Positions 11,071 to 25,868 of a stretch of 32,399 nt of DNA are shown one piece after another (the stretch's first letter is position 1; every line of letters begins with the position of its first letter). The notes under the pieces are model-generated. The model had not been told where the DNA came from. It did not search any database and saw only the letters and a list, made by a program, of their open reading frames with translations. Made by a program: the position numbers and the translations under genes. Source of the DNA: Rubrivivax sp. GTDB lineage: Bacteria > Pseudomonadota > Gammaproteobacteria > Burkholderiales > Burkholderiaceae_C. The stretch lies in contig JAEUPH010000127.1 in the NCBI GenBank assembly GCA_016790395.1, forward strand, positions 1 to 32,399, written 5' to 3'.

Positions 11071-12681
11071 ATGCTGAAGACCTACACCTGGCCGCGCTTC
11101 GCCTACCGGCCGGCGCCGCAGCCGCAACCCGCCGTGCCGCTGGTGGTGGTGGGTGCCGGGCCCGTGGGCCTGTGCGCAGCCATCGACGCCGCGCTGCGCG
11201 GCCAGCCCGTGGTGCTGCTGGACGAGGACGACACGGTGAGCATCGGCTCGCGCGGCGTCTGCTATGCCAAGCGCACGCTGGAGATCCTCGACCGCCTGGG
11301 CGTGGGTGACGCCGTCGTGGCCAAGGGCATCACCTGGAACGTCGGCCGCACCTTTCACCGCGACCGCGAGGTCTTCGCCTTCGACCTGCAGCCCGAACCC
11401 GGCCACCGACGGCCGGGCATGGTGAACCTGCAGCAGTACCACCTCGAGGAGATCCTGGTGAAGCGCGCGGCCGGGCTGCCGCTGATCGACCTGCGCTGGA
11501 AGCACCGGGTCACCCAGGTGCAGCCCGACGCCGACGGGGTCACCTTGCAGGTGGACACGCCCGACGGCCCCTACATGCTGCGCTGCGACTGGCTGGTGGT
11601 CGCCGACGGTGCGAAGAGCCCCATCCGCCGCCAGCTGGGCCTGGACATCGAGGGCAAGGTCTTCCAGGACCGTTTCCTCATCGCCGACGTGCTGCTGGAC
11701 GGCGAGCCCTTCGCCGCCGACCGCACCGAGCGACGCTTCTGGTTCGAGCCCCGCTTCCACGGCGGCCAGAGCGCGCTGATGCACCGCCAGGCCGACAAGG
11801 TGTGGCGGCTGGACTTCCAACTCGGCTGGGACGCCGACCCCGAGGCGGAGAAGCAGCCCGAGCGCGTGGCCCCGCGCGTGCGCGCCGCGCTGGACGGGCA
11901 GGGCATGGCGCAGCTGGGCTTCGAGCTGGAGTGGTGCAGCGTGTACACCTTCCAGTGCCGCCGCATGCAGCGCTTCCGCCACGACCGGCTGGTCTTCGTG
12001 GGCGACGCGGCGCACCAGGTCTCGCCCTTCGGCGCGCGGGGGGCCAACTCGGGCATCCAGGACACCGACAACCTGATGTGGAAGCTCGACCTCGTGCTGC
12101 GCGGCCTGGCCCCGCAGGCGCTGCTGGACAGCTACGACGCCGAGCGCGGCTACGCCGCCGACGAGAACCTGCTCAACAGCACGCGCAGCACCGACTTCAT
12201 GACGCCCAAGACACGCGCCAGCCGCGTGCTGCGCGACGCCGTGCTCTCGCTGGCGGCCGAGCAGCCCTTCGCGCGCGGGCTGGTCAACAGCGGGCGGCTG
12301 TCGGTGCCGGCCACGCTGGTGCAATCGCCGCTGAACACCCCGGATGAAGAGCCCTGGGACGGCTGGATGCTGCCCGGCGCGCCGGCCGACGACGCGCTGC
12401 TGCCCGGCCACGGCGGCCCGGACGGCTGGCTGCTCGAGCGCCTGCCGCCGCAGTTCGTGCTGCTGCTCTTCAGCGACGTCGCCGCGCCCGGGCCCGAGGC
12501 GCCGGTGCCGGTGCTGCGCCTGCCCGCCACGGGCCTGGCGGCGCAGCGTTTCGGGGCCCGCGAAGGCAGCTGCGTGCTGCTGCGGCCCGACCAGCACGTG
12601 GCCGCCCGCTGGCGCGCCTTCGACATCGACAAGCTGCGCGCCGCCCTGGCGCGCGCCACCGCCCAGGAGGTGCGCCCATGA
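11071..12681 (+). CDS. FAD-dependent aromatic monooxygenase, probable 3-hydroxyphenylacetate 6-hydroxylase large subunit
   Basis: A 536-aa flavoprotein of the PheA/TfdB/MhpA class (FAD_binding_3). The dinucleotide fold VVVGAGPVGLCAAIDAAL has G28, G30 and G33. The DG-like motif is in WLVVADGAKSPIRR, and the second FAD-binding GD motif VFVGDAAHQVSPFGARG is around Gly311-Asp312. The C-terminal thioredoxin-like region lies at about 400-530. Substrate cannot be read from sequence. Context is strong: the next gene is DUF2783, coupled by ATGA, followed by homogentisate dioxygenase. In Pseudomonas putida U, a flavoprotein plus a small coupling protein (MhaA/MhaB) makes homogentisate from 3-hydroxyphenylacetate. 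I infer the same reaction here. A phenol or hydroxyphenylpropionate hydroxylase is the alternative. Confidence 0.8.
   Translation: MLKTYTWPRFAYRPAPQPQPAVPLVVVGAGPVGLCAAIDAALRGQPVVLLDEDDTVSIGSRGVCYAKRTLEILDRLGVGDAVVAKGITWNVGRTFHRDREVFAFDLQPEPGHRRPGMVNLQQYHLEEILVKRAAGLPLIDLRWKHRVTQVQPDADGVTLQVDTPDGPYMLRCDWLVVADGAKSPIRRQLGLDIEGKVFQDRFLIADVLLDGEPFAADRTERRFWFEPRFHGGQSALMHRQADKVWRLDFQLGWDADPEAEKQPERVAPRVRAALDGQGMAQLGFELEWCSVYTFQCRRMQRFRHDRLVFVGDAAHQVSPFGARGANSGIQDTDNLMWKLDLVLRGLAPQALLDSYDAERGYAADENLLNSTRSTDFMTPKTRASRVLRDAVLSLAAEQPFARGLVNSGRLSVPATLVQSPLNTPDEEPWDGWMLPGAPADDALLPGHGGPDGWLLERLPPQFVLLLFSDVAAPGPEAPVPVLRLPATGLAAQRFGAREGSCVLLRPDQHVAARWRAFDIDKLRAALARATAQEVRP
12665..12670 (+). promoter_or_regulatory. 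Ribosome-binding site of the DUF2783 gene
   Basis: A full AGGAGG, 7 nt before the ATG at 12678, inside the end of the monooxygenase gene. It supports translation of the 82-aa protein as a real gene. Confidence 0.7.
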
Positions 12682-12926
12682 ACACGCTGAAGGTGCAGTC
12701 CAACTTCGGCCGGCCCGGCCAGCGCGAGCGCCAGGCCTACAGCGCCGGCGACAGCTTCTACGAGATGCTGGTCGACGGCCACCGCGGCCTCAGCGACGCG
12801 CAGAGCGAGCTGATGAGCGCGCGGCTCGTGCTGCTGCTGGCCAACCATGTCGGCGACCTGGACGTGCTGCGCCAGGCCATTGCCGCCGCCCGCGTGGGCG
12901 TGATCGACAAGGAGACCACCGCATGA
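12678..12926 (+). CDS. DUF2783 small protein, probable monooxygenase coupling protein
   Basis: An 82-aa soluble, mostly helical protein. The conserved core is DSFYEMLVDGHRGLSD followed by ARLVLLLANHVGDLDVLRQA (about residues 31-72), which I recognise as DUF2783. It is coupled on both sides by ATGA overlaps: its start overlaps the monooxygenase stop, and its stop overlaps the hmgA start. Both have good Shine-Dalgarno sequences. That packing argues for fixed stoichiometry with the flavoprotein. The small MhaB coupling protein of the P. putida 3-hydroxyphenylacetate 6-hydroxylase is the functional model I propose. That link is inference from position and size, not from a motif. Confidence 0.82.
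   Translation: MNTLKVQSNFGRPGQRERQAYSAGDSFYEMLVDGHRGLSDAQSELMSARLVLLLANHVGDLDVLRQAIAAARVGVIDKETTA
12909..12914 (+). promoter_or_regulatory. Ribosome-binding site deciding the hmgA start
   Basis: AAGGAG, 8 nt before the ATG at 12923. It rules out the long in-frame extension that reads back into the monooxygenase gene. Confidence 0.7.
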
Positions 12927-14215
12927 GCGAACCGTCCTACCTCGCCGGCTTCGGCAACCAGTTCCAGAGCGAGGCCGTGCCCGGCGCGCTGCCGCAGGGC
13001 CGCAACAGCCCGCAGCGCGCGCCGCTGGGCCTGTACGCCGAACTGCTCTCGGGCACCGCCTTCACCGCGCCGCGTGCCGAGAACCGCCGCACCTGGATGT
13101 ACCGCCGCCAGCCCAGCGTCGTGGCCGGCGCCTACGAGCCGCTGGCGCACGCCTTCTGGAAGACCGGCGCCGCCGAGGGCGAACAGCCTCCGCCCGACCC
13201 GCTGCGCTGGCACCCGGTGGCCGTGCCCGAGGCGCCGGCGGACTTCATCGACGGGCTGCGTACGGTGGTGGTGAACGGTGACGTGGAAGCGCAGAGCGGC
13301 CTGGGCATCCACCTCGTGCGCTGCAACCGCAGCATGGCGCGCGCCTGCGTGAACGCCGACGGCGAGATGCTGGTCATCCCGCAACAGGGCGCGCTGCACG
13401 TGACGACGGAGCTGGGCCGCCTGCACGTGGTGCCCGGCGAAGTGCTGCTGCTACCGCGCGGCCTGGCCTGGCGCATCGCGGTGGACGGGCCGACACGCGC
13501 TTATGTCTGCGAGAACTACGGCGCGCCCTTCCGCCTGCCCGAGCTGGGCCCCATCGGCAGCAACGGCCTGGCCAACCCGCGCGACTTCCTGGCGCCGGTG
13601 GCCGCCACCGACGACGACGTGGGCGCCTGCGACATCGTTCGCCGCTTCGGCGGCCGACTGTGGGCCACGCGCGCGAAGAGCTCGCCCTTCAACGTCGTGG
13701 CCTGGCACGGCAACCTGGCGCCGATGAAGTACGACACGGCGAAGTTCATGGTCATCGGCAGCATCAGCTACGACCACCCCGACCCCAGCATCTTCACCGT
13801 GCTCACCAGCCCCAGCGACACCGCCGGCGTGGCCAACTGCGACTTCGTGGCCTTCGCGCCGCGCTGGATGGTGATGGAAGACACCTTCCGCCCGCCCTGG
13901 TACCACCGCAATGTGATGGCCGAGTTCATGGGCCTGGTGCACGGCCAGTACGATGCCAAGCCCGAGGGCTTCCGGCCCGGCGGCATGAGCCTGCACAACA
14001 CGCACGTGCCGCACGGGCCGGACACCGACGCGTTCGACAAGGCCAGCAGCACGCCGCTGGCGCCGCACAAGCTGGACGACACCCTGGCCTTCATGCTGGA
14101 AAGCCGCTGGCGCATGAAGCCCACCGCCTGGGCCCTGCAGGGCGAGGGCGGGCAGGCACTGGACCGCGCCTACGCCGATTGCTGGGGCGGCCTGGCCGAC
14201 ACCTTCAAGCCCTGA
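12923..14215 (+). CDS. hmgA: Homogentisate 1,2-dioxygenase
   Basis: A 430-aa enzyme that opens the homogentisate ring to 4-maleylacetoacetate using Fe(II) and O2, in tyrosine/phenylalanine and hydroxyphenylacetate catabolism. The N-terminal signature is YLAGFGNQFQSEAVPGALPQ. The iron ligands align with constant offset to the human enzyme: His328 (PPWYHRN), Glu334 (AEFMG) and His364 (VPHGPD). The length is normal for the bacterial family (about 430-440 aa). The open frame continues far upstream, but the start is fixed at 12923 by the family N terminus, the AAGGAG site and the ATGA overlap with the DUF2783 gene. fahA follows after 4 bp. Confidence 0.97.
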   Translation: MSEPSYLAGFGNQFQSEAVPGALPQGRNSPQRAPLGLYAELLSGTAFTAPRAENRRTWMYRRQPSVVAGAYEPLAHAFWKTGAAEGEQPPPDPLRWHPVAVPEAPADFIDGLRTVVVNGDVEAQSGLGIHLVRCNRSMARACVNADGEMLVIPQQGALHVTTELGRLHVVPGEVLLLPRGLAWRIAVDGPTRAYVCENYGAPFRLPELGPIGSNGLANPRDFLAPVAATDDDVGACDIVRRFGGRLWATRAKSSPFNVVAWHGNLAPMKYDTAKFMVIGSISYDHPDPSIFTVLTSPSDTAGVANCDFVAFAPRWMVMEDTFRPPWYHRNVMAEFMGLVHGQYDAKPEGFRPGGMSLHNTHVPHGPDTDAFDKASSTPLAPHKLDDTLAFMLESRWRMKPTAWALQGEGGQALDRAYADCWGGLADTFKP

Positions 14216-14219
14216 GCCC

Positions 14220-15548
14220 ATGACCGAAGCCGCATCGCTGCTGGACGCCACGCACGACCCGAACCTGCGCAGCTGGGTGGCCAGCGCCAACGCGCCGGGC
14301 GCCGACTTCCCGATCCAGAACCTGCCGCTGGGCCGCTTCCGCCGCCGCGCAGCCGAAGGCGAGACGCCGCAGGCCCCGCGCGCCGGCGTGGCCATCGGCG
14401 ATCAGGTGCTCGACCTGAAGCTCGCCAGCGAGCAGTGCCCCTGGCTGGGCGACATCTACCCACTGCTGGCACCCCTGGCCGCGGGCGACATCGCCGGCTT
14501 CATGCGCATGGGGCGTCCGGCCTGGAAGGCGCTGCGCGTGGCGCTGTCGCAGGCGCTGGCCGAGGGCAGCGAACAGGGTCCCTTCCTGGAGATGTGCCTG
14601 GTGCCGCGCGCCGAGGTGCAGATGGCACTGCCCTGCCGCATCGGCGACTACACCGACTTCTTCACCGGCATCCACCACGCCCGCGCCGTGGGCGCGCTGT
14701 TCCGGCCCGACCAGCCGCTGATGCCGAACTACCAGCACGTGCCCATCGCGTACCACGGCCGGGCGTCCTCCATCGGCATCGGCGGCGCCGTCAGGCGCCC
14801 GCACGGGCAGACGCGAAGTTCCGACGGTCCGCCGCGATTCGGCCCCAGCCAGCGCCTGGACTACGAACTGGAGCTGGCCCTGTGGGTGGGCGCCGACAAC
14901 CCGCTGGGCACGCCGGTGGACATGGCGCACGCCGAAGACCGGCTCTTCGGCATCGGGCTGCTCAACGACTGGTCGGCGCGCGACATCCAGGCCTGGGAGT
15001 ACCAGCCGCTGGGGCCTTTTCTGGCCAAGAGCTTCGCCACGTCCGTGTCGCCGTGGATCGTCAGCCTGGACGCGCTGGCGCCCTTCCGTCGCCCCTGCAC
15101 GCGGCCCGAGGGCGACCCCGAGCCGCTGCCGCACCTGGACTCGGCCTGGAACCGCGCCGCCGGGGCCTTCGACATCCGGCTGGAGGTGTGGCTGCAGACC
15201 GCCGCCATGCGCGCTGCCAGGTTGAACCCGGTGCGGCTGTCGCACAGCAACATGCTGGACGCCTACTGGACGCCGGCGCAGATGGTGGCGCACCACACCA
15301 GCAACGGCTGCAACCTGCAGGTGGGCGACCTCCTGGGCACCGGCACGCTCAGCGGCCCGGGGCCGGGGCAGGGGGGCTCGCTGCTGGAGCTGAGCGCCGG
15401 TGGCAAGGCGCCGCTGACGCTGCCCGATGGCCAGACGCGCAGCTTCCTCGAAGACGGTGACACCGTGATCCTGCACGCCTACTGCGCCGCACCGGGCGCG
15501 GTGCGCATCGGCCTGGGCCAGCTCGCCGGCACCGTGATGCCGGCTTGA
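14220..15548 (+). CDS. fahA: Fumarylacetoacetase
   Basis: A 442-aa hydrolase splitting fumarylacetoacetate into fumarate and acetoacetate, the last step of homogentisate breakdown. The FAH signature DYTDFFTGIHHARAVGALFR contains Asp146 (metal ligand) and His153 (general base), matching human Asp126 and His133. The metal-binding ELELALWVG and the LLNDWSARDIQAWEYQPLGP and FLAKSFATSVSPW blocks are also intact. The N-terminal SH3-like domain is about residues 1-130. It lies 4 bp after hmgA. No maleylacetoacetate isomerase gene lies in the window, so the isomerisation needs a gene elsewhere or a glutathione-independent route. Confidence 0.97.
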   Translation: MTEAASLLDATHDPNLRSWVASANAPGADFPIQNLPLGRFRRRAAEGETPQAPRAGVAIGDQVLDLKLASEQCPWLGDIYPLLAPLAAGDIAGFMRMGRPAWKALRVALSQALAEGSEQGPFLEMCLVPRAEVQMALPCRIGDYTDFFTGIHHARAVGALFRPDQPLMPNYQHVPIAYHGRASSIGIGGAVRRPHGQTRSSDGPPRFGPSQRLDYELELALWVGADNPLGTPVDMAHAEDRLFGIGLLNDWSARDIQAWEYQPLGPFLAKSFATSVSPWIVSLDALAPFRRPCTRPEGDPEPLPHLDSAWNRAAGAFDIRLEVWLQTAAMRAARLNPVRLSHSNMLDAYWTPAQMVAHHTSNGCNLQVGDLLGTGTLSGPGPGQGGSLLELSAGGKAPLTLPDGQTRSFLEDGDTVILHAYCAAPGAVRIGLGQLAGTVMPA

Positions 15549-16880: not shown

Positions 16881-17471
16881 CTACTCGGCGTCGAACTGGT
16901 GGGCGTTGCGCCCGCGCACGCCGGCGTAGAAGGCCTTCACCTCGGCCAGGTCGGCCTGCACGTCGCCGCTGGTCGTGAGCACCGGGCCGATGCCGGCCTC
17001 CTTCTTGTGATAGTCCATGTAGGCCAGCAGGATGGGCACCTCGGCCTGCTGCGCGATGAACCAGAAGCCGGTCTTCCAGTGCCGCGTGCGGCCGCGCGTG
17101 CCTTCGGGCGGCACCACCAGCTGCATGGGCTGCCGCGCGGCACGCAGCGATGCGGCGGCGCTGGCCACCAGGTCGTGCGGCCCGCTGCGGTCCACCGGGA
17201 TGCCCCCCAGCCAGCGCATCACGCCGCCGAAGGGGAAGCGGAAGATGCTGGCCTTGCCCAGCCAGCGGATGTGCAGCTTCAGCACGAAGGCCGTCATCAG
17301 CGTGTAGGGCAGGTCCCAGTTGCTGGTGTGCGGCGCGGCGATCAGCACACAGCGCGTGGCCTGCGGCGGCAGCTCGCCGCGCAGCGTCCAGCCGTTGAGC
17401 CGCAGGAACACCCGGGACAGCCCGCGCATCACATGGCGCACCACAGGGGTTTCGAAGATCGTGACTTGCAT
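16881..17471 (-). CDS. PlsC-type 1-acylglycerol-3-phosphate acyltransferase family protein
   Basis: A 196-aa acyltransferase. Motif I is HTSNWD (His48, Asp53), the catalytic H-x4-D. Motif II is represented by the FPFGGVMRWLGGIPVDRS region. Motif III is PEGTR (residues 122-126). A hydrophobic stretch at the N terminus may associate with the membrane. At 196 aa it is shorter than classic PlsC (about 240 aa) and resembles the smaller LPLAT family members. It transfers an acyl chain to a lysophospholipid or related lipid; the exact substrate is not readable. It is divergent from the c-di-GMP operon. Its TAG stop directly abuts the SPOR-like gene's stop. Confidence 0.88.
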   Translation of the reverse strand: MQVTIFETPVVRHVMRGLSRVFLRLNGWTLRGELPPQATRCVLIAAPHTSNWDLPYTLMTAFVLKLHIRWLGKASIFRFPFGGVMRWLGGIPVDRSGPHDLVASAAASLRAARQPMQLVVPPEGTRGRTRHWKTGFWFIAQQAEVPILLAYMDYHKKEAGIGPVLTTSGDVQADLAEVKAFYAGVRGRNAHQFDAE

Positions 17472-17534
17472 GCCAGCTCAGGCGGGGAGGGGTCTGAATT
17501 GTGGCGTGGCCGCAGCATCCTGAAACAGAAGCTC

Positions 17535-17561
17535 TCAAGACTCAGGCGGCCGCGCCGATAA
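17535..17561 (+). promoter_or_regulatory. Candidate sigma-28 (FliA) promoter for the c-di-GMP operon
   Basis: A -10 box GCCGATAA at 17554-17561 matches the E. coli FliA -10 consensus at all eight positions. A -35 box TCAAGACT at 17535-17542 matches TAAAGTTT at five of eight, with the core CAAG form. The spacer is exactly 11 bp, the FliA spacing. Predicted transcription starts near 17568, about 45 nt before the ATG of the EAL gene and in the right orientation. It lies in the 142-bp region shared with the divergent acyltransferase gene. Confidence 0.7.
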
Positions 17562-17613
17562 CCGGTGCACGGGGGCCTGCGTGCAACGGGCCCGCTCACC
17601 GCATCGGCCCACC

Positions 17614-20223
17614 ATGACGTCCGACGAACCCGCCTTGCCGTCCTGCCCTGTCCGGCCGGGCGAAGCGCTGCCGGCCGAGGCCCTGGCCCGGGCCCTGGAG
17701 AGCGCAAGCTGGAACGCCAGCATGCTGGCGCGCACCGAGGCGCTGTGCCGCGCCGGCAGCTTCGAGATCCAGTGGCCCGACGGTGCGCTGAAGATTTCTG
17801 CCGGTCTGCTGCAGCTGGTCGGCGCCCGCCCGGACGCCCCCACCGCCAGCACGCTGGACGCGCTGGACTGGGTGCCCGAGGAAGAGCGTGCCTATGTGGC
17901 CGGCATCTGGCGCAATGCCGTCGTCGACGAACCCTTCGAGTTCCAGCACCGTCTGGTGACGGCCGCCGGCCAGCGCCTGGTGGTGCTGCACCGCGGCCTG
18001 CTGGGGCGCGACGGCCGCGGCGTGGCGCTGCTGCAGGACATCACGGCCCAGGTGGAGGCGGCGCAGCGCATCGAGACGCTGACCACCCATCACGACGTCA
18101 CCGGACTGCCCAACCGCGCCTGGCTGCTGGACCAGATCGACGCCGCCATGCACGCCGCGCAGTGGAGCCCCGACGGCCCCGGCTACGCCGTGCTGGCGCT
18201 GGACCTGCCGCGCATCGCCGAAGTGAAGAGCAACATGGGCTTCGGCGCCGGCGACACCCTGGCCATGGCCCTGGCCTCGCGCCTGCGGGAGGAAAGCCTG
18301 TCCAGCGCGCTGGCCGCCCACCTGGCCGAGACCGAGTTCGCGCTGCTGGTGGAACTGCCGCAGGGCAGTTCACGCGAGGCGCTGCTGGTACAGGCGCTGG
18401 ACCTGTGCCGCCGGCTGGAGCGGCCCGTGCGCCTGGGCGCCACCGAGGTCTACCCGCAATGCCGCATCGGCGTGGCCTTCTTCCCTGGCGACGCCGATGC
18501 GCCCGCCGCGCTGCTGGAGTGCGCGCAGACGGCGCGGCTGGACGTGCGCGAAGGCCAGGGCGTGGCGCGTTTTCGGCCCGACAGCACCACGCGCGCGCGC
18601 CGCGCCATGCAGGTGGAGGCCGCGCTGTGGCGCGCCGTGCAGATGGACGAGTTCGTCCTGCACTACCAGCCGCAGGTGGACCTGGTGAGCGGACAGGTCT
18701 GCGGCGCCGAGGCGCTGCTGCGCTGGCACTCGGCCGAGCTGGGCCTGGTGCAGCCGGGCGAGTTCATCCCCATTGCCGAGCGCTCGGGGCTGATCGGCGT
18801 CGTCGGCGACTGGGTGCTGCGCCAGGCCTGCACCGACGCCGCCCGCTGGCGCCAGGCGGGGCTGCGGCGGCTGCGTGTCTCGGTCAACCTGGCGGCCAGC
18901 CAGCTGCAGCGGCCCGACATCGCGGGCCAGGTGCAGGCCCTGCTGGTGGAGACCGGCGCCGACCCCGGCTGGCTGGGCGTGGAACTCACCGAGAGCATGG
19001 TGATGACCGACGTGGCCAGCGCCACCGCGTCCTTGCGCGCGCTCAAGGCCATCGGCATCCAGATCTCGCTGGACGACTTCGGCACCGGCTTCTCCAGCCT
19101 CAGCAGCCTGTCACGGCTGCCGATCGACGTGGTCAAGGTCGACCGCTCCTTCGTGCGCGACGTGACGGCCGACGCACAGGACGTCTCCGTCACGCGCGCC
19201 ATCATCCACATGACGCACGGCCTGCAGATGCGGGCGCTGGCCGAGGGCGTGGAGACCGAAGGCCAGCTCAGCCTGCTGGTGGCCGCCGGCTGCGACGAGA
19301 TCCAGGGCTACTGGTTCAGCCCCGCCGTCACCGCCGATGAACTGGCCGCGCTGGTGCGCGAGGGCCGGCGTCTGCCCGACCGCTACGTGCGCCGGGTCAG
19401 CACCGGGCGCCCGCGCACGCTGCTGCTGGTGGACGACGAGGACAACATCCTCGCCGCGCTCAAGCGCCTGCTGCGCCGCGACGGTTACCGCATCCTCACC
19501 GCCACCAGCGCCGCCGAAGGGCTCAAGCGCCTGGCCGAGGAGGAGGTGGACGTCATCGTTTCCGACCAGCGCATGCCCGGCATGACGGGCGTGGAGTTCC
19601 TGCACCGCGCCAAGGACCTCTACCCCGAGACGCTGCGCATGGTGCTGTCGGGCTACACCGAGCTGCAGTCCATCATCGACGCCGTCAACGAAGGCGCGAT
19701 CTACAAGTTCCTCACCAAGCCCTGGGACGACGAGCGCCTGCGCGGCCACGTGGCCGAGGCCTTTCGCCAGAAGGAGCTGGCCGACGAGAACCGCCGCCTG
19801 GCGCGCCGCGTCGACCGCGCCAATGCCGACCTCGCCCAGGTCAACGAGCAGCTGGGCCGGCTGCTGGCGCAGCAGCGCTCGCAGGCCGAGCTGCTGGAAG
19901 CCAGCGCCAGCAGCATGCGCGACGTGTTCGACGAACTGCCCGCCGCCGTGCTGGGCCTGGACGCCGACGGCACGCTGGGCTTTGCCAACCGCGAGGCCGA
20001 GCGCCTGCTGCCCGGCGTGGCCGCCCTGCTGGGCGACCGCGTGGCGGCGCTGCTGCCGCCGGAGGCCACGGCCGCGCTGGCACCGGGTGCCTCGGTGGCC
20101 TGCCCCGTCAGCGTCGTCGACGGTCACCTCATCCGCCTGCTCGCGCGCGAGCTGCCGGCGCGCCACGGCGAGCGCGGCCGCCTGCTGCTGTGCCTGCCTG
20201 CTGAACCCGCTCCCGTGCCATGA
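17614..20223 (+). CDS. EAL phosphodiesterase / degenerate GGDEF with REC and PAS domains
   Basis: An 869-aa soluble cyclic-di-GMP protein. The order is an N-terminal PAS-like domain (about 25-145), a degenerate GGDEF (about 150-320), EAL (about 330-585), REC (about 600-725), coiled coil (about 725-775) and a C-terminal PAS-like domain (about 780-865). The GGDEF signature is LAETEF (237-242), so it cannot make c-di-GMP. The EAL site is intact: Glu366 in EALLRW, VSVNLAASQL, ELTES, DDFGTGFSSL, VKVDRSF and EGVETEGQ. Active hydrolysis is expected. The REC has Asp651 in SDQRMPG and FLTKPW, like RpfG receivers. I use the ATG at 17614; a GTG at 17581 would add 11 residues. It is first in the operon, behind a FliA-type promoter. 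Confidence 0.9.
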   Translation: MTSDEPALPSCPVRPGEALPAEALARALESASWNASMLARTEALCRAGSFEIQWPDGALKISAGLLQLVGARPDAPTASTLDALDWVPEEERAYVAGIWRNAVVDEPFEFQHRLVTAAGQRLVVLHRGLLGRDGRGVALLQDITAQVEAAQRIETLTTHHDVTGLPNRAWLLDQIDAAMHAAQWSPDGPGYAVLALDLPRIAEVKSNMGFGAGDTLAMALASRLREESLSSALAAHLAETEFALLVELPQGSSREALLVQALDLCRRLERPVRLGATEVYPQCRIGVAFFPGDADAPAALLECAQTARLDVREGQGVARFRPDSTTRARRAMQVEAALWRAVQMDEFVLHYQPQVDLVSGQVCGAEALLRWHSAELGLVQPGEFIPIAERSGLIGVVGDWVLRQACTDAARWRQAGLRRLRVSVNLAASQLQRPDIAGQVQALLVETGADPGWLGVELTESMVMTDVASATASLRALKAIGIQISLDDFGTGFSSLSSLSRLPIDVVKVDRSFVRDVTADAQDVSVTRAIIHMTHGLQMRALAEGVETEGQLSLLVAAGCDEIQGYWFSPAVTADELAALVREGRRLPDRYVRRVSTGRPRTLLLVDDEDNILAALKRLLRRDGYRILTATSAAEGLKRLAEEEVDVIVSDQRMPGMTGVEFLHRAKDLYPETLRMVLSGYTELQSIIDAVNEGAIYKFLTKPWDDERLRGHVAEAFRQKELADENRRLARRVDRANADLAQVNEQLGRLLAQQRSQAELLEASASSMRDVFDELPAAVLGLDADGTLGFANREAERLLPGVAALLGDRVAALLPPEATAALAPGASVACPVSVVDGHLIRLLARELPARHGERGRLLLCLPAEPAPVP

Positions 20224-20411
20224 ACGAGACCGTTGCCCCACCGCTGCCCGGCCCGCCTGCCGGCACGCCCCCCCAGCCGCAGGCCCGCGAGGCCCGCATC
20301 GCGCACCTCTTCCGCGGTTCGCGCCGTCGCGGCCTCATCCACCCGCTGGAACACATCGTCCAGCAACTGCGCAGCGAGGCGACACCGCCGCTGCCGGAGC
20401 CCCTGCGATGA
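20220..20411 (+). CDS. Small 63-aa protein translationally coupled in the c-di-GMP operon
   Basis: Not a recognised family. The first 22 residues are Pro-rich (APPLPGPPAGTPPQPQ). A basic, probably helical core follows (ARIAHLFRGSRRRGLIHPLE, then HIVQQLRSE) and a Pro-rich tail. It overlaps the EAL gene stop and the HDOD gene start by ATGA on both sides, in a different frame from each. This packing is the main evidence that it is real; no Shine-Dalgarno is visible. It could be a docking peptide linking signalling partners. It could also be a non-functional spacer ORF that only maintains translational coupling. Confidence 0.55.
   Translation: MNETVAPPLPGPPAGTPPQPQAREARIAHLFRGSRRRGLIHPLEHIVQQLRSEATPPLPEPLR
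20396..20399 (+). promoter_or_regulatory. Ribosome-binding site of the HDOD gene
   Basis: GGAG, 8 nt before the ATG at 20408. It lies within the 63-aa ORF and supports 20408 rather than the open frame upstream. Confidence 0.55.
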
Positions 20412-21298
20412 TGCCCATCCTGGAGCGCGCGTCACACATCCCCGCGGAGGCCCTGCAACGCTGCCTGGGCAACCTGGCGCCCTTGCCGCAGGCGACGCTC
20501 GACGCGCTGCAAGCCCTTCGCGACGAGTCCCAGGGCAGCGAGGCCTGCGCCGAACTGCTGGGCCACGACCCCGCGCTCGCGGCGCGTGCGCTGCGCCTGG
20601 CGAACTCGGCCTTCTACGGCGTGCCCGGCCGCGTGACGCACCTGCGCGACGCCGTGCACCTGCTGGGGCGGCGCACGCTGTCTTCGCTGCTCACCGTGGC
20701 GCTGCTGGCGACGCAGACCCAGGCCCGGGCCGGCTCGCCGCTGTCCACGGCGGCCTTCTGGCGCCATGCGCTGGGCGCGGCCTTCGCGGCCCGCGGCATC
20801 GCCGAGGCGCTGCACATGGACGCCGAGCTCGCCTTCGTCACCGGGCTGCTGCACGACATCGGCCGCCTCACGCTGGTGGCGCACTTCCCCGGCGAACTGC
20901 GCGCCGCCATCCGCCTGGCGCAGGACGCCGACCAGGGCATCACCGAAGTGGAAGAAGAACTGCTGGGCACCAGCCACGTGCGGGTGGGCGCGATGGTGGC
21001 GCTGCACTGGCACTTTCCCCCTGGCGTGGCGCAAGCCATTGCCTTGCACCACGCGCCGGTGGCGGCTGCCGACGGCCGCGCCAGCCTGTCCGACGTGGTG
21101 CATGTGGCCGATGCCGTGGCCCATGCGCTGGACCTCAACGCCGACCCGCACGAACGCGTGCCGCCGCTGGACGCCGGCGCCTGGGAGCGCATCGCGCTGC
21201 CGCCGCGGGTGCTGCTGCCCGTGCTGCGCGCCGCCGAGCGCGGCGTCGCCGAGCTGAGCCTGGCGCTCGGCATCGCCCCCGAACCCCTGGCTGCCTGA
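20408..21298 (+). CDS. HDOD domain signalling protein
   Basis: A 296-aa soluble protein that is almost wholly one HDOD domain (about residues 15-215). Its landmarks are LLGHDPALAARALRLANSAF, YGVPGRVTHLRDAVHLLG, the HD-like GLLHDIGRLTLVAHFPGEL, and HVRVGAMVALHWHFP followed by IALHH. HDOD domains are non-enzymatic relatives of HD-GYP and usually act as scaffolds or output modules in motility and c-di-GMP networks. Here an HDIG motif is kept, but the full HD-GYP metal set is not seen. It starts at the first of two adjacent ATG codons, overlaps the 63-aa gene by ATGA, and is followed 3 bp later by the kinase. Confidence 0.9.
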   Translation: MMPILERASHIPAEALQRCLGNLAPLPQATLDALQALRDESQGSEACAELLGHDPALAARALRLANSAFYGVPGRVTHLRDAVHLLGRRTLSSLLTVALLATQTQARAGSPLSTAAFWRHALGAAFAARGIAEALHMDAELAFVTGLLHDIGRLTLVAHFPGELRAAIRLAQDADQGITEVEEELLGTSHVRVGAMVALHWHFPPGVAQAIALHHAPVAAADGRASLSDVVHVADAVAHALDLNADPHERVPPLDAGAWERIALPPRVLLPVLRAAERGVAELSLALGIAPEPLAA

Positions 21299-21301
21299 AT
21301 C

Positions 21302-22231
21302 ATGGACGACAAGAACTGCCAAGACTGCTGCCCCTACCACGCCCAGCTCGACGAGCTGCGCCGGACCAACGGCTCGCTGACCGAACTGAACAGCCAGCTG
21401 CAGCGCGCGCAGGACCAGCTGGTCCAGTCGGAGAAGCTGGCCTCCATCGGCCAGCTGGCCGCCGGCGTGGCGCACGAGATCAACAACCCCGTGGGCTACG
21501 TCTTCAGCAACTTCGGCACGCTGGAGAAGTACCTCGCCGAGCTGTTCCGCATGCTGGCCGCCTACGAGGAGGCCGAGCCCCTGCTGGCCGGCACGCCGGC
21601 GGCCGGGCGGCTGGCGGCGCTGCGCGAGGAGATCGAGCTGGACTACCTCAAGGAGGACGTGCCGCAGCTGATGAACGAATCGCGCGAGGGCATCAGCCGC
21701 GTGCGCAAGATCGTGCAGGACCTGAAGGACTTCTCCCACGTCGACGCGCGCCGCGAGTGGGAATGGGCCGACCTGCACCGCGGCATCGACAGCACGCTGA
21801 ACATCGTCAACAACGAGATCAAGTACAAGGCCGACGTGGTGAAGGACTATGGCCAGCTGCCGCAGGTGCAATGCCTGTCGTCGGAGCTGAACCAGGTGTT
21901 CATGAACCTGCTGGTGAATGCCGCGCACGCCATGCCCGGCGGCGAGAAGGGCCGCGGCACCATCCACGTGCGCACCGGCACCGAAGGCGGCGAGGTGTGG
22001 GTGGAGATCGAGGACAACGGCTGCGGCATCGCGAAGGAGAACCTCGGCCGCATCTTCGACCCCTTCTTCACCACCAAGGCCGTGGGGCAGGGCACGGGGC
22101 TGGGGCTCTCGCTGTCCTACGGCATCGTGCAGAAGCACCACGGCCGCATGGAGGTGGACAGCGAAACCGGACGCGGCACGCGCTTCCGCGTCACCGTGCC
22201 GGTGAGCCAGCCGGCGGAGGCCGCGGCGTGA
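21302..22231 (+). CDS. Soluble sensor histidine kinase with Cys-rich N terminus
   Basis: A 309-aa cytoplasmic kinase without transmembrane segments. The N-terminal 13 residues hold CQDCCPYH (Cys6, Cys9, Cys10, His13), a possible metal or redox site. A coiled coil follows (about 15-45). The HisKA-like helix carries phospho-acceptor His58 in GVAHEINNPVGYVFSNFG. An inserted helical region separates it from the HATPase: NQVFMNLLVNAAHAMPGG, EDNGCGI, FDPFFTTK and GTGLGLSLSYGIV. All ATP-binding boxes are intact. It has no receiver or PAS domain of its own. The REC domains in the first and last genes of the operon are the obvious partners. Its stop overlaps the GTG start of the HD-GYP gene. Confidence 0.92.
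   Translation: MDDKNCQDCCPYHAQLDELRRTNGSLTELNSQLQRAQDQLVQSEKLASIGQLAAGVAHEINNPVGYVFSNFGTLEKYLAELFRMLAAYEEAEPLLAGTPAAGRLAALREEIELDYLKEDVPQLMNESREGISRVRKIVQDLKDFSHVDARREWEWADLHRGIDSTLNIVNNEIKYKADVVKDYGQLPQVQCLSSELNQVFMNLLVNAAHAMPGGEKGRGTIHVRTGTEGGEVWVEIEDNGCGIAKENLGRIFDPFFTTKAVGQGTGLGLSLSYGIVQKHHGRMEVDSETGRGTRFRVTVPVSQPAEAAA
22216..22220 (+). promoter_or_regulatory. Ribosome-binding site deciding the GTG start of the HD-GYP gene
   Basis: GGAGG, 7 nt before the GTG at 22228. The in-frame reading continues far upstream through the kinase and HDOD genes; this site and the REC domain boundary fix the start. Confidence 0.65.
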
Positions 22232-23550
22232 ACGCCCCGGAGCGGCTGCTGGACGGGCTGTCGGCACCGCCGGGCGGACCGTGGACAGTGCTGTGCGTCG
22301 ACGACGAGAGCAACATCCTCTCGGCGCTGCGCCGTGTGCTGCGTGCCGCGGGCTACCAGGTGCTGCTGGCCACCGGTGGCGAAGCGGCGCTCGAGACGAT
22401 GCGCGGCTGGCCGGTGGACGCCGTGATCTCCGACATGCGCATGCCCGGCATGGACGGCGCCGCGCTGCTGGAGCAGGTGCACGCCGGCTGGCCGCAGGCC
22501 GTGCGCATCCTGCTCACCGGCCAGGCCGACATGAACTCCACCGTGGCCGCCATCAACCGCGGCCGCATCCTGCGCTACCTGGCCAAGCCCTGGGACGAGC
22601 CCGAGCTGCTGGCCACCGTCCGCGAGGGCGTGGAGAGGCTGGCGCTGGAACGCGAGAAGCTGCGCCTGGAGGCGCTGACGCAGCAGCAGAACGAGGAACT
22701 CAGGACCCTCAACGCCGAGCTGGAGCAGCGCGTCGCTGCGCGCACGGCCGAGCTCAGCGAGGCCAACCAGAAGCTGCAGCGCAACCACCTGAAGTCCATC
22801 AAGGTCTTCAGCAACCTGCTGGAACTGCGCGGCGAGCGCTTCGCCGGCCACGGCCGCCGCGTCGCCGAGACCGCGCGCGACCTGGCGCGTGCCATGGGCC
22901 TGTCCGAAGCGGAAACGCTGGACGTCTTCGTGGCCGGCCTGCTGCACGACATCGGCCTCATCGGCAGCTTCGACCGGCTGCTGACCAAGCCCATGGCGCG
23001 CTACTCCGACGAGGAGACCGCGCTGTTCCGCGAGCACACCAAGGCGGGCGAACAGTCGCTGATGGCGCTGGACGACATGCAACCCGTGCTGCCGCTGATC
23101 CGCGCCCACCACGAGCGCTGGGACGGCCACGGCTTCCCCGACCACCTGGCCGGTGCCGCCATCCCGGTGGGCGCGCAGATCCTGGCGGTGGCCGATGCCT
23201 TCGACGACCTGCAGCAGGGCCACATCGTCGAGGCCCGGCTCAGCGCCCAGGAAGCGCGCACGCTGATGCGACAGTCGCGCGGCACGCAGTTCAGCCCCGA
23301 GGTGCTGGACGTCTTCCTGCAGATCACCGAGCCCGAGGTCCCGAAGGCGCCGGCGCCGAAACTGCGCGTCGCCAGCGGCATGCTGGAACCCGGCATGGTG
23401 CTGGCGGCCGACCTGGTGTCCACGCGCGGCGTGCTGATGCTGACCAAGGGCCACCGCTTGACGGCATCGCTGATCCAGCGCATGCGCGAGTTCGAGGCCC
23501 GCGAGGGCGGGGCGCTGCAGATCCTCATCGTGCCGCCGCCGCTGGCCTGA
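22228..23550 (+). CDS. RpfG-type response regulator: REC plus HD-GYP c-di-GMP phosphodiesterase
   Basis: A 440-aa two-component output protein. The REC domain (about 18-140) has Asp69 in ISDMRMPGMDG and the LAKPWDEPEL end. A coiled-coil linker (about 145-190) precedes HD-GYP (about 190-370), with HDIG at His240-Asp241, the HHERWDGHG stretch, and GFP (302-304) where the name-giving GYP would be. The C-terminal extension (about 385-435, GMVLAADLVSTRGVLMLTKG) is common in this family. Tyr to Phe in GYP is conservative, and hydrolysis of c-di-GMP is still likely. The GTG start overlaps the kinase stop (GTGA). It is the operon's second phosphodiesterase and a natural phosphorylation target of that kinase. 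Confidence 0.93.
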   Translation: MNAPERLLDGLSAPPGGPWTVLCVDDESNILSALRRVLRAAGYQVLLATGGEAALETMRGWPVDAVISDMRMPGMDGAALLEQVHAGWPQAVRILLTGQADMNSTVAAINRGRILRYLAKPWDEPELLATVREGVERLALEREKLRLEALTQQQNEELRTLNAELEQRVAARTAELSEANQKLQRNHLKSIKVFSNLLELRGERFAGHGRRVAETARDLARAMGLSEAETLDVFVAGLLHDIGLIGSFDRLLTKPMARYSDEETALFREHTKAGEQSLMALDDMQPVLPLIRAHHERWDGHGFPDHLAGAAIPVGAQILAVADAFDDLQQGHIVEARLSAQEARTLMRQSRGTQFSPEVLDVFLQITEPEVPKAPAPKLRVASGMLEPGMVLAADLVSTRGVLMLTKGHRLTASLIQRMREFEAREGGALQILIVPPPLA

Positions 23551-23582
23551 GCGCTTCAGCAGCCCGGGGTACCATGCCACGC

Positions 23583-23588
23583 AGGAGG
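23583..23588 (+). promoter_or_regulatory. Ribosome-binding site deciding the start of the PPi-type phosphofructokinase
   Basis: AGGAGG, 8 nt before the ATG at 23597. It excludes the GTG at 23588, which would lie on the site itself. Confidence 0.75.
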
Positions 23589-23596
23589 TGTGTGGC

Positions 23597-24811
23597 ATGT
23601 CATCCGGCAAGATCCTCGTCGCCCAGGGCGGCGGCCCCACGGCGGTCATCAACCAGAGCCTGGCCGGCGTGGTGCTGGAGGCACGCCGCCACCATGGCGT
23701 GAGCCTGGTCTACGGCGCCCACCACGGCGTGCGCGGCATCGTCAACGAAGACCTGGTGGACCTCACGCGCGAGACCAGCCACAACCTGGAGATGGTGGCC
23801 GGCACCCCGGCCAGCGCGCTGGGCAGCACGCGCGACAAACCAGACCTGAAATACTGCCAGGAGATCTTCCAGGTGCTCAAGGCGCACGCCATCGAGCATT
23901 TCTTCTACATCGGCGGCAACGACAGCGCCGACACCGTGCGCATCGTGGCCGAGGAGGCGCAGAAGGCGGCCTACCCGCTGCGCGCCATCCACATCCCCAA
24001 GACCATCGACAACGACCTGGTCGGCAATGACCACACGCCGGGCTTCCCGTCGGCGGCACGCTTCGTGGCCCAGGCCTTCGCCGGCGCCAACCTCGACAAC
24101 GCGGCGCTGCCCGGCGTCTACGTGGGGGTGGTCATGGGGCGCCACGCGGGCTTCCTCACCGCCGCCAGCGCCCTGGGCAAGAAGTTCCCCGACGACGGCC
24201 CGCACCTCATCTACGTGCCCGAGCGCGTGTTCGAGATCGACCGCTTCCTGGCCGACGTGAAGGCCATGTACGACAAGCACGGCCGCTGCGTCATCGCGGT
24301 GAGCGAAGGCATCCACGACGCCGAGGGTGCGCCCATCATCACCAAGCTCGCCGCCGACGTGGAGAAAGACGCCCATGGCAACGTGCAGCTCAGCGGCAGC
24401 GGCGCGCTGGCGGATCTGCTTTGCGAGGAGATCAAGGCCAGGCTGAAGATCAAGCGCGTGCGCGGCGACACCTTCGGCTACCTGCAGCGCAGCTTCGTCG
24501 GCTGCGTCAGCGACGTCGATGCGCGCGAGGCCCGCGAGGTGGGCGAGAAGGCCGTTCAGTACGCCATGTGGGGCGAAGGCAGCGGCTCGGTGGCCATCCG
24601 CCGCACCGGCTTCTACTCGGTGGACTATGAACTGCAGCCCTTGTCGGCCGTGGCCGGCAAGACGCGCACGATGGAAGACGAGTTCATCTCGGCCTCGGGC
24701 ACCGATGTCACCGACCAGTTCAGGCTCTACCTGCGCCCCTTGCTCGGTTCGGGCATGCCGGATGCTTTCCGCCTGCGTCCCAACCCTGTTCCGAAGATCC
24801 TGAAGATCTAG
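23597..24811 (+). CDS. 6-phosphofructokinase, probable pyrophosphate-dependent type
   Basis: A 404-aa phosphofructokinase that interconverts fructose 6-phosphate and fructose 1,6-bisphosphate. The N-terminal GGGPTAVINQSLAG is of the pyrophosphate-type group. At the two diagnostic sites it has Asp109 (IGGNDSADT) where ATP enzymes have Gly104, and Lys135 (PKTIDND) where ATP enzymes have Gly124. Asp plus Lys is the classical PPi signature. The preceding residue is Asn108 where most enzymes have a metal-binding Asp. The catalytic TIDND base and the sugar-phosphate site MGRHAGFL are present. A PPi enzyme would be reversible and serve glycolysis and gluconeogenesis. The second, different phosphofructokinase starts 4 bp downstream. 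Confidence 0.9.
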   Translation: MSSGKILVAQGGGPTAVINQSLAGVVLEARRHHGVSLVYGAHHGVRGIVNEDLVDLTRETSHNLEMVAGTPASALGSTRDKPDLKYCQEIFQVLKAHAIEHFFYIGGNDSADTVRIVAEEAQKAAYPLRAIHIPKTIDNDLVGNDHTPGFPSAARFVAQAFAGANLDNAALPGVYVGVVMGRHAGFLTAASALGKKFPDDGPHLIYVPERVFEIDRFLADVKAMYDKHGRCVIAVSEGIHDAEGAPIITKLAADVEKDAHGNVQLSGSGALADLLCEEIKARLKIKRVRGDTFGYLQRSFVGCVSDVDAREAREVGEKAVQYAMWGEGSGSVAIRRTGFYSVDYELQPLSAVAGKTRTMEDEFISASGTDVTDQFRLYLRPLLGSGMPDAFRLRPNPVPKILKI

Positions 24812-24815
24812 CCCC

Positions 24816-25868
24816 ATGCACATCGGCATCCTCACCGGCGGCGGCGACTGCCCCGGCCTCAACGCGGTCATCCGCGCCGTCACGCTGGCCCTGGTGGGCC
24901 AGGGCGCGGCCAAGGTCACCGGCATCGAACGCGGCTTCCACGGCCTGCTCATCCGCCGCTCGCGCACGCTCACGCCCGAGAGCGTGGTCGACATCCTGGC
25001 CGAGGGCGGCACCATCCTGGGCACGCACAACAGCTGCGACCCTTTCCGCTTCGAAGGGCGCGACCAGAGCGAGCAAGCGCTGGCCTACGCGAAGGAACTG
25101 GGCCTGGACGCGCTGGTGGTCATCGGCGGCGACGGCACCATGAGCATCGCCCACCGCTTCGCGCACCGCGGCCTGCCCATGGTGGGCGTGCCCAAGACCA
25201 TCGACAACGACCTGCCCGCCACCGACCGCACCTTCGGTTTCGACAGCGCCGTGGCCGTGGTCTCCGAGGCGCTGGACCGCATCGCCACCACGGCGCGCAG
25301 CCACCAGCGCGTGATGATCGTCGAGACCATGGGCCGCTACGCCGGGTGGATCGCGCTGGAAGGCGGCCTGGCCGGCGGCGCCGACGTCATCCTGCTGCCC
25401 GAGCTGCCCTTCAGCGTCGAGGCCGTGGCCGCGCACGCGCGCCGGCGCGAGGCCGCCGGGCTGCACACGCTGATCTGCATCGCCGAAGGTGCGCGCGCCG
25501 AAGGTGAAGGCCTGACGGTGCGCGAGCGCATCGCCGGCAGCCCCGACCCGCTGCGCCTGGGCGGCGTCAGTGCCTGGCTCCAGCAGCGGCTGCAGCCGCT
25601 GGTGCAGAGCGAGGTGCGCAGCACGCTGCTGGGCCACACGCAGCGTGGCGGCACGCCCACCGCCTTCGACCGCATCCTGGCCACGCGTTTCGGATGGCAT
25701 GCCGCGGAGCTGGTGCTCAAGGGCGAGTTCGGCCGCATGGTGGCGCTGCAAGGCGACACCATCGTCAGCCACTCGATCGACGCCATCGCCGGCCACACGC
25801 GCCCGGTGCCCGCGGACGACCCGCTGCTGCAGGTGGCGCGCGGCACCGGCGTGATGCTGGGCACATGA
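24816..25868 (+). CDS. 6-phosphofructokinase, Gly/Lys (ATP-type group III) variant
   Basis: A 350-aa phosphofructokinase starting MHIGILTGGGDCPGLNAVIR. Diagnostic residues are Gly107 (GGDGT, ATP-like) and Lys127 (PKTIDND, shared with PPi enzymes). The G plus K combination is typical of group III enzymes, several of which use ATP; donor use cannot be settled from sequence. The MGRYAGWIAL substrate loop and LGHTQRGGTPTAFDRILATR, the FBP-binding block, are intact. The effector-binding residues of E. coli PfkA are not obviously conserved. It lies 4 bp after the PPi-type gene, and its stop overlaps the hydrolase start (ATGA), so all are one operon. It is only distantly similar to its neighbour, so this is not a recent duplication. 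Confidence 0.9.
   Translation: MHIGILTGGGDCPGLNAVIRAVTLALVGQGAAKVTGIERGFHGLLIRRSRTLTPESVVDILAEGGTILGTHNSCDPFRFEGRDQSEQALAYAKELGLDALVVIGGDGTMSIAHRFAHRGLPMVGVPKTIDNDLPATDRTFGFDSAVAVVSEALDRIATTARSHQRVMIVETMGRYAGWIALEGGLAGGADVILLPELPFSVEAVAAHARRREAAGLHTLICIAEGARAEGEGLTVRERIAGSPDPLRLGGVSAWLQQRLQPLVQSEVRSTLLGHTQRGGTPTAFDRILATRFGWHAAELVLKGEFGRMVALQGDTIVSHSIDAIAGHTRPVPADDPLLQVARGTGVMLGT

Follow-up and report, generated by a model that had tools for sequence, protein, structure and literature searches.

A group of c-di-GMP signalling genes in the window (the whole stretch of DNA that was analysed, 32,399 nt) lies behind a sequence resembling a promoter for the flagellar sigma factor sigma-28 (FliA), which raises the question of whether these genes belong to a motility regulon and what they would do there. 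The sigma-28 consensus joins a -35 element of the TCAAG/TAAAG type to the -10 element GCCGATAA, as in TCAAG-N14-GCCGATAA. On the + strand of the window, TCAAGACT occupies 17535-17542 and is followed, after 11 nt, by GCCGATAA at 17554-17561. An earlier note had placed GCCGATAA 11 bp after TCAAGACT; its positions, spacing and orientation were all confirmed. Extended by one leading base, the box CTCAAG-N14-GCCGATAA at 17534-17561 is an exact (14/14) match. The box and the genes around it are as follows.

16881..17471, - strand: divergent acyltransferase (PlsC-like), a neighbour outside the cassette (Pfam Acyltransferase, 5.5e-12)
17534..17561, + strand: predicted sigma-28 (FliA)-type promoter box, CTCAAG-N14-GCCGATAA (exact match, shuffles, matrix score)
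17614..20223, + strand: GGDEF (degenerate, AETEF)-EAL-REC-PAS protein of 869 aa, predicted c-di-GMP phosphodiesterase (Pfam EAL 1.5e-73, REC 3.2e-22, GGDEF 3.4e-15)
20411..21298, + strand: HDOD-domain protein, start at 20408 or 20411 (Pfam HDOD 8.2e-48; frame from 19823)
21302..22231, + strand: soluble histidine kinase with a VAHEINNP box (Pfam HATPase_c 7.1e-28, HisKA 3.9e-6)
22228..23550, + strand: REC-HD-GYP-type response regulator, its GTG start overlapping the kinase stop (Pfam HD_5 9.9e-37, REC 5.9e-22; frame from 20233)

The box sits in the 142-bp intergenic gap between the PlsC-like gene and the ATG at 17614, and its end lies 52 nt from that ATG, in agreement with the distance of about 50 bp first proposed. 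The extended box occurs once in the window as an exact match and twice with up to two mismatches, against 0.03 matches expected from shuffles. Using a matrix trained without the window site, we obtained a score of 26.8 bits, within the span of the training sites (17.0-29.1). A shorter arrangement, TAAAG-N11-GCCGATAA, was also tried in the window and rejected, as its spacing is too short and its 2 matches (three mismatches) against 0.59 expected are near chance. A simple consensus scan of 17300-23700 returned neither a sigma-70-like promoter nor a + strand terminator. We consider it probable that 17534-17561 is a sigma-28 promoter, which FliA would recognize. Sigma-28 promoters of Campylobacter are reported, in an excerpt of PMC3847290, to start transcription 6-8 nt after the -10 element, and by analogy the transcription start here is predicted at about 17568-17570.

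Matches were also counted in the source genome (G000, a metagenome-assembled genome of 3.93 Mb, 75% complete, in which the window is contig 209) and its genus. In this genome, TCAAG-N14-GCCGATAA had eight sites when up to one mismatch was allowed. Three of them are exact: the window site, a site lying between fliD and fliS, and a site ahead of a further GGDEF-EAL gene. The pattern CTCAAG-N14-GCCGATA, with up to one mismatch, gave 20 sites compared to 2 for the reversed pattern; four of the 20 lacked a 100-codon frame starting with ATG within a distance of 250 nt. Because the leading C was added after inspecting eight own-genome sites, the window site among them, these own-genome counts are not fully independent, while those of the other 40 genomes are. 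Across 41 genomes of the genus, own genome included, there were 789 sites and 274 control sites, and the motif outnumbered the control in 39 of 41, the reverse being true of G303 and G315. Given the ratio of 274 to 789, about a third of the box-class sites at such stringency may be background.

In the source genome, the genes behind this class of box include fliD, fliS, a chemoreceptor (MCP) gene and six EAL genes, and in genomes of the same genus, Pfam matches add MotA, a CheY-like protein and CheD. Judged by this content, the box class is a sigma-28 regulon. Genome- and genus-wide enrichment, together with the flagellar and chemotaxis targets, thus gives good support to the sigma-28 reading of the window box. 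Of 81 genus genomes, 72 had a FliA match above the cut-off. The source genome had none, with incompleteness (75% complete) as the likely reason; it has three flagellin-domain matches.

Further targets identified by Pfam comprise ComFB, a MarR-type regulator, an HD-GYP protein and several GGDEF or GGDEF-EAL proteins. The ComFB-domain gene (L240:2033-2332, Pfam on the L240 copy; also L201 and L227, hence three same-genus genomes) has its box 31-35 nt before the ATG; ComFB is a proposed c-di-GMP receptor. The MarR-type gene (L216:1384-1944, Pfam on the L216 copy; also L237 and L256, again three same-genus genomes) carries CTCAGG-N14-GCCGATAA 6-7 nt before the ATG.

The link to c-di-GMP genes was then quantified. 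An EAL match was counted if a box lay upstream on the same strand and within reach of an open frame, a generous rule that tolerated distances of up to 2600 bp between box and domain. By this rule, 6 of 18 EAL matches in the source genome had a box, with 0.10 expected, and 24 of 118 did so when it was pooled with five others whose site lists are complete (six genomes in all), with 0.69 expected; G306 and G329, whose lists are also complete, were left out. The proportion varied among genomes, with only 1 of 16 in G319. In a group with boxes about 1940 bp away (L209, L252), the EAL genes may be operon-type cases, because the box is followed first by a frame of 133 codons. The box class also precedes 7TMR-DISM-GGDEF genes of the diguanylate-cyclase type (L169, L202), and therefore the regulon need not act in one direction. 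These patterns suggest that sigma-28 has taken control of several c-di-GMP genes in this Rubrivivax-like genus, and that the set of genes varies.

To follow the box outside the window, we applied a matrix built from 81 genus sites, the window site excluded, to 81 upstream regions in relatives. The scored regions took in longer N-termini, which many relatives have and which move the promoter upstream; many of the relatives are distant (40-50% identity), and orthology is not certain for all. Four of the 81 regions scored within the range of the training sites (L023, L099, L100 and L032) and 77 fell below it. Two of the four, L099 and L100, come from two species of one genus and have an in-frame ATG 21 nt after the box; in L023 this distance is 62 nt, and the L032 box has a 13-nt spacer. 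Eleven of the 81 regions reached 12 bits or more, compared to a mean of 0.98 and a maximum of 4 for 40 column-permuted matrices. None of the eight near-full-length same-genus relatives with upstream sequence reached 12 bits (best, 11.2). Another relative from the same genus, L160, which is partial, scored 15.4 bits, with an ATG 6 nt behind the box. The box-cassette link is thus recurrent but patchy among relatives, also as regards conservation in orthologous operons, by which the earlier note proposed to judge the box. Two Zoogloea loci (L079:1579 and L084:4802) have box-like sequences with 1 and 2 mismatches, ending GCCGATAC, some 95-145 nt before an EAL part matching the window protein.

This patchiness bears on a different reading, in which the window box arose by chance or is what remains of a former promoter, and the cassette is run by an unrecognized housekeeping promoter, perhaps as in same-genus relatives. 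The absence of a strong box in most relatives would fit such a reading, as would the AT-rich, box-free upstream regions of the same-genus loci L096, L155 and L159 (scores of 3.5, 4.7 and -7.9). We nevertheless judge it improbable, since all 14 positions match within a gap of 142 bp where the window as a whole should yield 0.03 matches at up to two mismatches, strand and distance are correct, boxes accompany six EAL matches of the same genome, far above expectation, and the consensus scan of 17300-23700 found no sigma-70-like site to take the place of the box.

If the sigma-28 promoter reading is correct, the genes behind it would be linked to motility. In relatives, 19 of 30 loci have all four cassette genes, in unchanged order and on one strand; L026, L029 and L032 have no kinase between the HDOD and HD-GYP genes, and several of the remaining loci are cut by contig ends. 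In nine further same-genus loci with short flanks, the EAL gene was followed by the HDOD gene in eight. The kinase box showed no variation among all 35 aligned loci. We found no support for the five genes originally assigned to the operon: the signalling cassette comprises four, and the possible fifth is a phosphofructokinase gene at 23597, which begins 46 nt after the cassette and has its own GGAGG. A full five-gene operon was consequently rejected as unproven. Directly downstream of the cassette, the window holds two phosphofructokinase genes in tandem (23597-25868). On the other side, at 11071-15548, a homogentisate dioxygenase gene, a fumarylacetoacetase gene and an FAD-binding oxidase-type gene form an aromatic amino-acid breakdown cluster.

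The operon had also been described as encoding two c-di-GMP phosphodiesterases. The EAL protein is a predicted phosphodiesterase with complete catalytic motifs (GAEALLRW, ELTE, DDFGTG, KVDRSF and EGVETE); the EAL site looks active and the GGDEF site (AETEF) looks degenerate. At least 31 of 39 aligned loci retain the EAL-motif glutamate, which some relatives have lost (GAQVHLQW and similar). The HD-GYP protein is the doubtful member of the pair. Canonical HD-GYP motifs read HDxGK and HHExxDGxGYP, and the window protein departs from them with HDIGL...HHERWDGHGFP, in which the lysine and the tyrosine are replaced. Relatives differ at both of these positions, and among the variants listed for them the lysine position is L, F, H, Q, V or K. 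This variation suggests a divergent subfamily, and the protein may not be an active phosphodiesterase.

Late in flagellar assembly, the anti-sigma factor FlgM leaves the cell and FliA becomes free. We propose that FliA freed at this stage would transcribe the four-gene cassette from 17534-17561 as one message with a leader of about 45 nt. Phosphate would then pass from the kinase to the receivers of the EAL and HD-GYP proteins, and their phosphorylation would tune c-di-GMP breakdown in cells that have started flagella. The cassette probably breaks down c-di-GMP. A fall in c-di-GMP after flagella have been built, as the earlier note proposed, is plausible where the EAL gene is concerned; the net direction may be either, since the same box class also precedes the diguanylate-cyclase-type genes. 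A tentative alternative, which shares the promoter claim and is not exclusive of our preferred model, is that the promoter works but supplies motile cells with a phosphorelay and c-di-GMP sensing module of either output sign, the degenerate GGDEF and HD-GYP domains serving as binding modules. The AETEF sequence and the missing HD-GYP lysine are in keeping with such a role, as are the 7TMR-DISM-GGDEF and ComFB genes behind the same box class and the loss of the EAL glutamate in some relatives. In contrast, the complete EAL motifs of the window protein, and the retention of that glutamate in most aligned loci, argue for phosphodiesterase activity, and we regard sensing as a possible but doubtful primary role.

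Breakdown of c-di-GMP under sigma-28 control thus remains our preferred reading for the cassette, whose box, 52 nt from the ATG, is of the leadered type. The genes for fliD, motA and the MCP likewise have their ATG 58-85 nt from the box. Many other boxes of the class lie much closer to a gene. Among 101 sites in five genomes (every site of G000, G319 and G195, numbering 20, 20 and 19, plus 20 of 25 in G269 and 22 of 30 in G334), 29 were followed by the ATG of a frame of at least 100 codons at 4-10 nt from the -10 box, most often at 7; orthologous sites among the 101 are not independent, and 14 had no ATG-started 100-codon frame within 250 nt. Such sites were present in each genome (G000, 7/20; G319, 4/20; G195, 4/19; G269, 7/20; G334, 7/22). 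The same offset was found at 7 of 140 control sites with CTCAAG and no -10 element, and at none of the 9 with GCCGATA and no -35 element, a small control. The offset is also kept within orthologue groups: 6-8 nt for a membrane GGDEF-EAL protein (four genomes, five genes), 8 nt for CheD (two genomes) and 6-7 nt for the MarR-type regulator (three genomes). In the wider family, TCAAG-N14-GCCGATA-N(7-11)-ATG occurred in 88 of 299 genomes compared to 61 of 299 for N(20-24), counted with open frames unfiltered, which amounts to an excess rather than a clean separation. Short-offset boxes were seen in G000 and in the same-genus loci L133, L163-L181 and L182-L257, before c-di-GMP, sensor and chemotaxis genes.

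Because of the 6-8 nt start distance given for Campylobacter sigma-28 promoters in the excerpt of PMC3847290, transcripts from short-offset boxes would be leaderless or nearly so. Translation of such genes would bypass Shine-Dalgarno initiation, unlike that of fliD, motA and the MCP gene. On balance, we favour the view that, alongside the flagellar genes, sigma-28 controls a large branch for c-di-GMP and sensing in this Rubrivivax-like genus, and that transcripts from more than a quarter of its promoters would begin at the start codon or within a few bases of it, as leaderless mRNAs. In Campylobacter, the leaderless genes described in the same excerpt have sigma-70 sequences (PMC3847290), and in Leptospira, leaderless genes are under-represented in cell motility at 37 degrees, as stated in part of PMC5243855. 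In the PubMed Central literature, searched with limited wording, no report connecting leaderless transcripts with sigma-28 stood out. Should the leaderless arrangement prove real, such transcripts would have a flagellar sigma factor among their sources.

Collectively, these findings place a conserved Burkholderiales cassette (EAL, HDOD, kinase and HD-GYP) in a probable motility context. They suggest that c-di-GMP enzymes have repeatedly been put under the flagellar sigma factor in the Rubrivivax-like group, rather than in a single-gene case, and the patchy conservation offers a test bed for the rate at which links between sigma-28 and c-di-GMP are gained and lost.

Phosphodiesterase control by FliA is already known from Pseudomonas (bifA) and E. 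coli (yhjH, also called pdeH). The yhjH gene holds a class-3 position and encodes a phosphodiesterase controlled by the late flagellar sigma factor, as predicted for the window EAL gene; it differs from the window cassette in being a stand-alone EAL gene, with no linked kinase, HDOD or HD-GYP gene. Its induction with FliA is cited in an excerpt of PMC5300878. According to the same excerpt, bifA of P. putida KT2440 is a FliA-controlled phosphodiesterase gene that lowers c-di-GMP and aids swimming, while no sigma-28 consensus was found before bifA in P. aeruginosa PAO1 (PMC5300878). The window cassette thus resembles bifA both in joining a predicted phosphodiesterase gene to a probable sigma-28 promoter and in the patchy conservation of that link. 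Unlike the cassette, bifA of P. putida has an additional sigma-70-type promoter and its control has been shown experimentally, as reported in that part of PMC5300878. The window cassette, known from sequence alone in an uncultured Burkholderiales bacterium, differs in turn by setting four genes, with a kinase and two receiver domains, behind its box.
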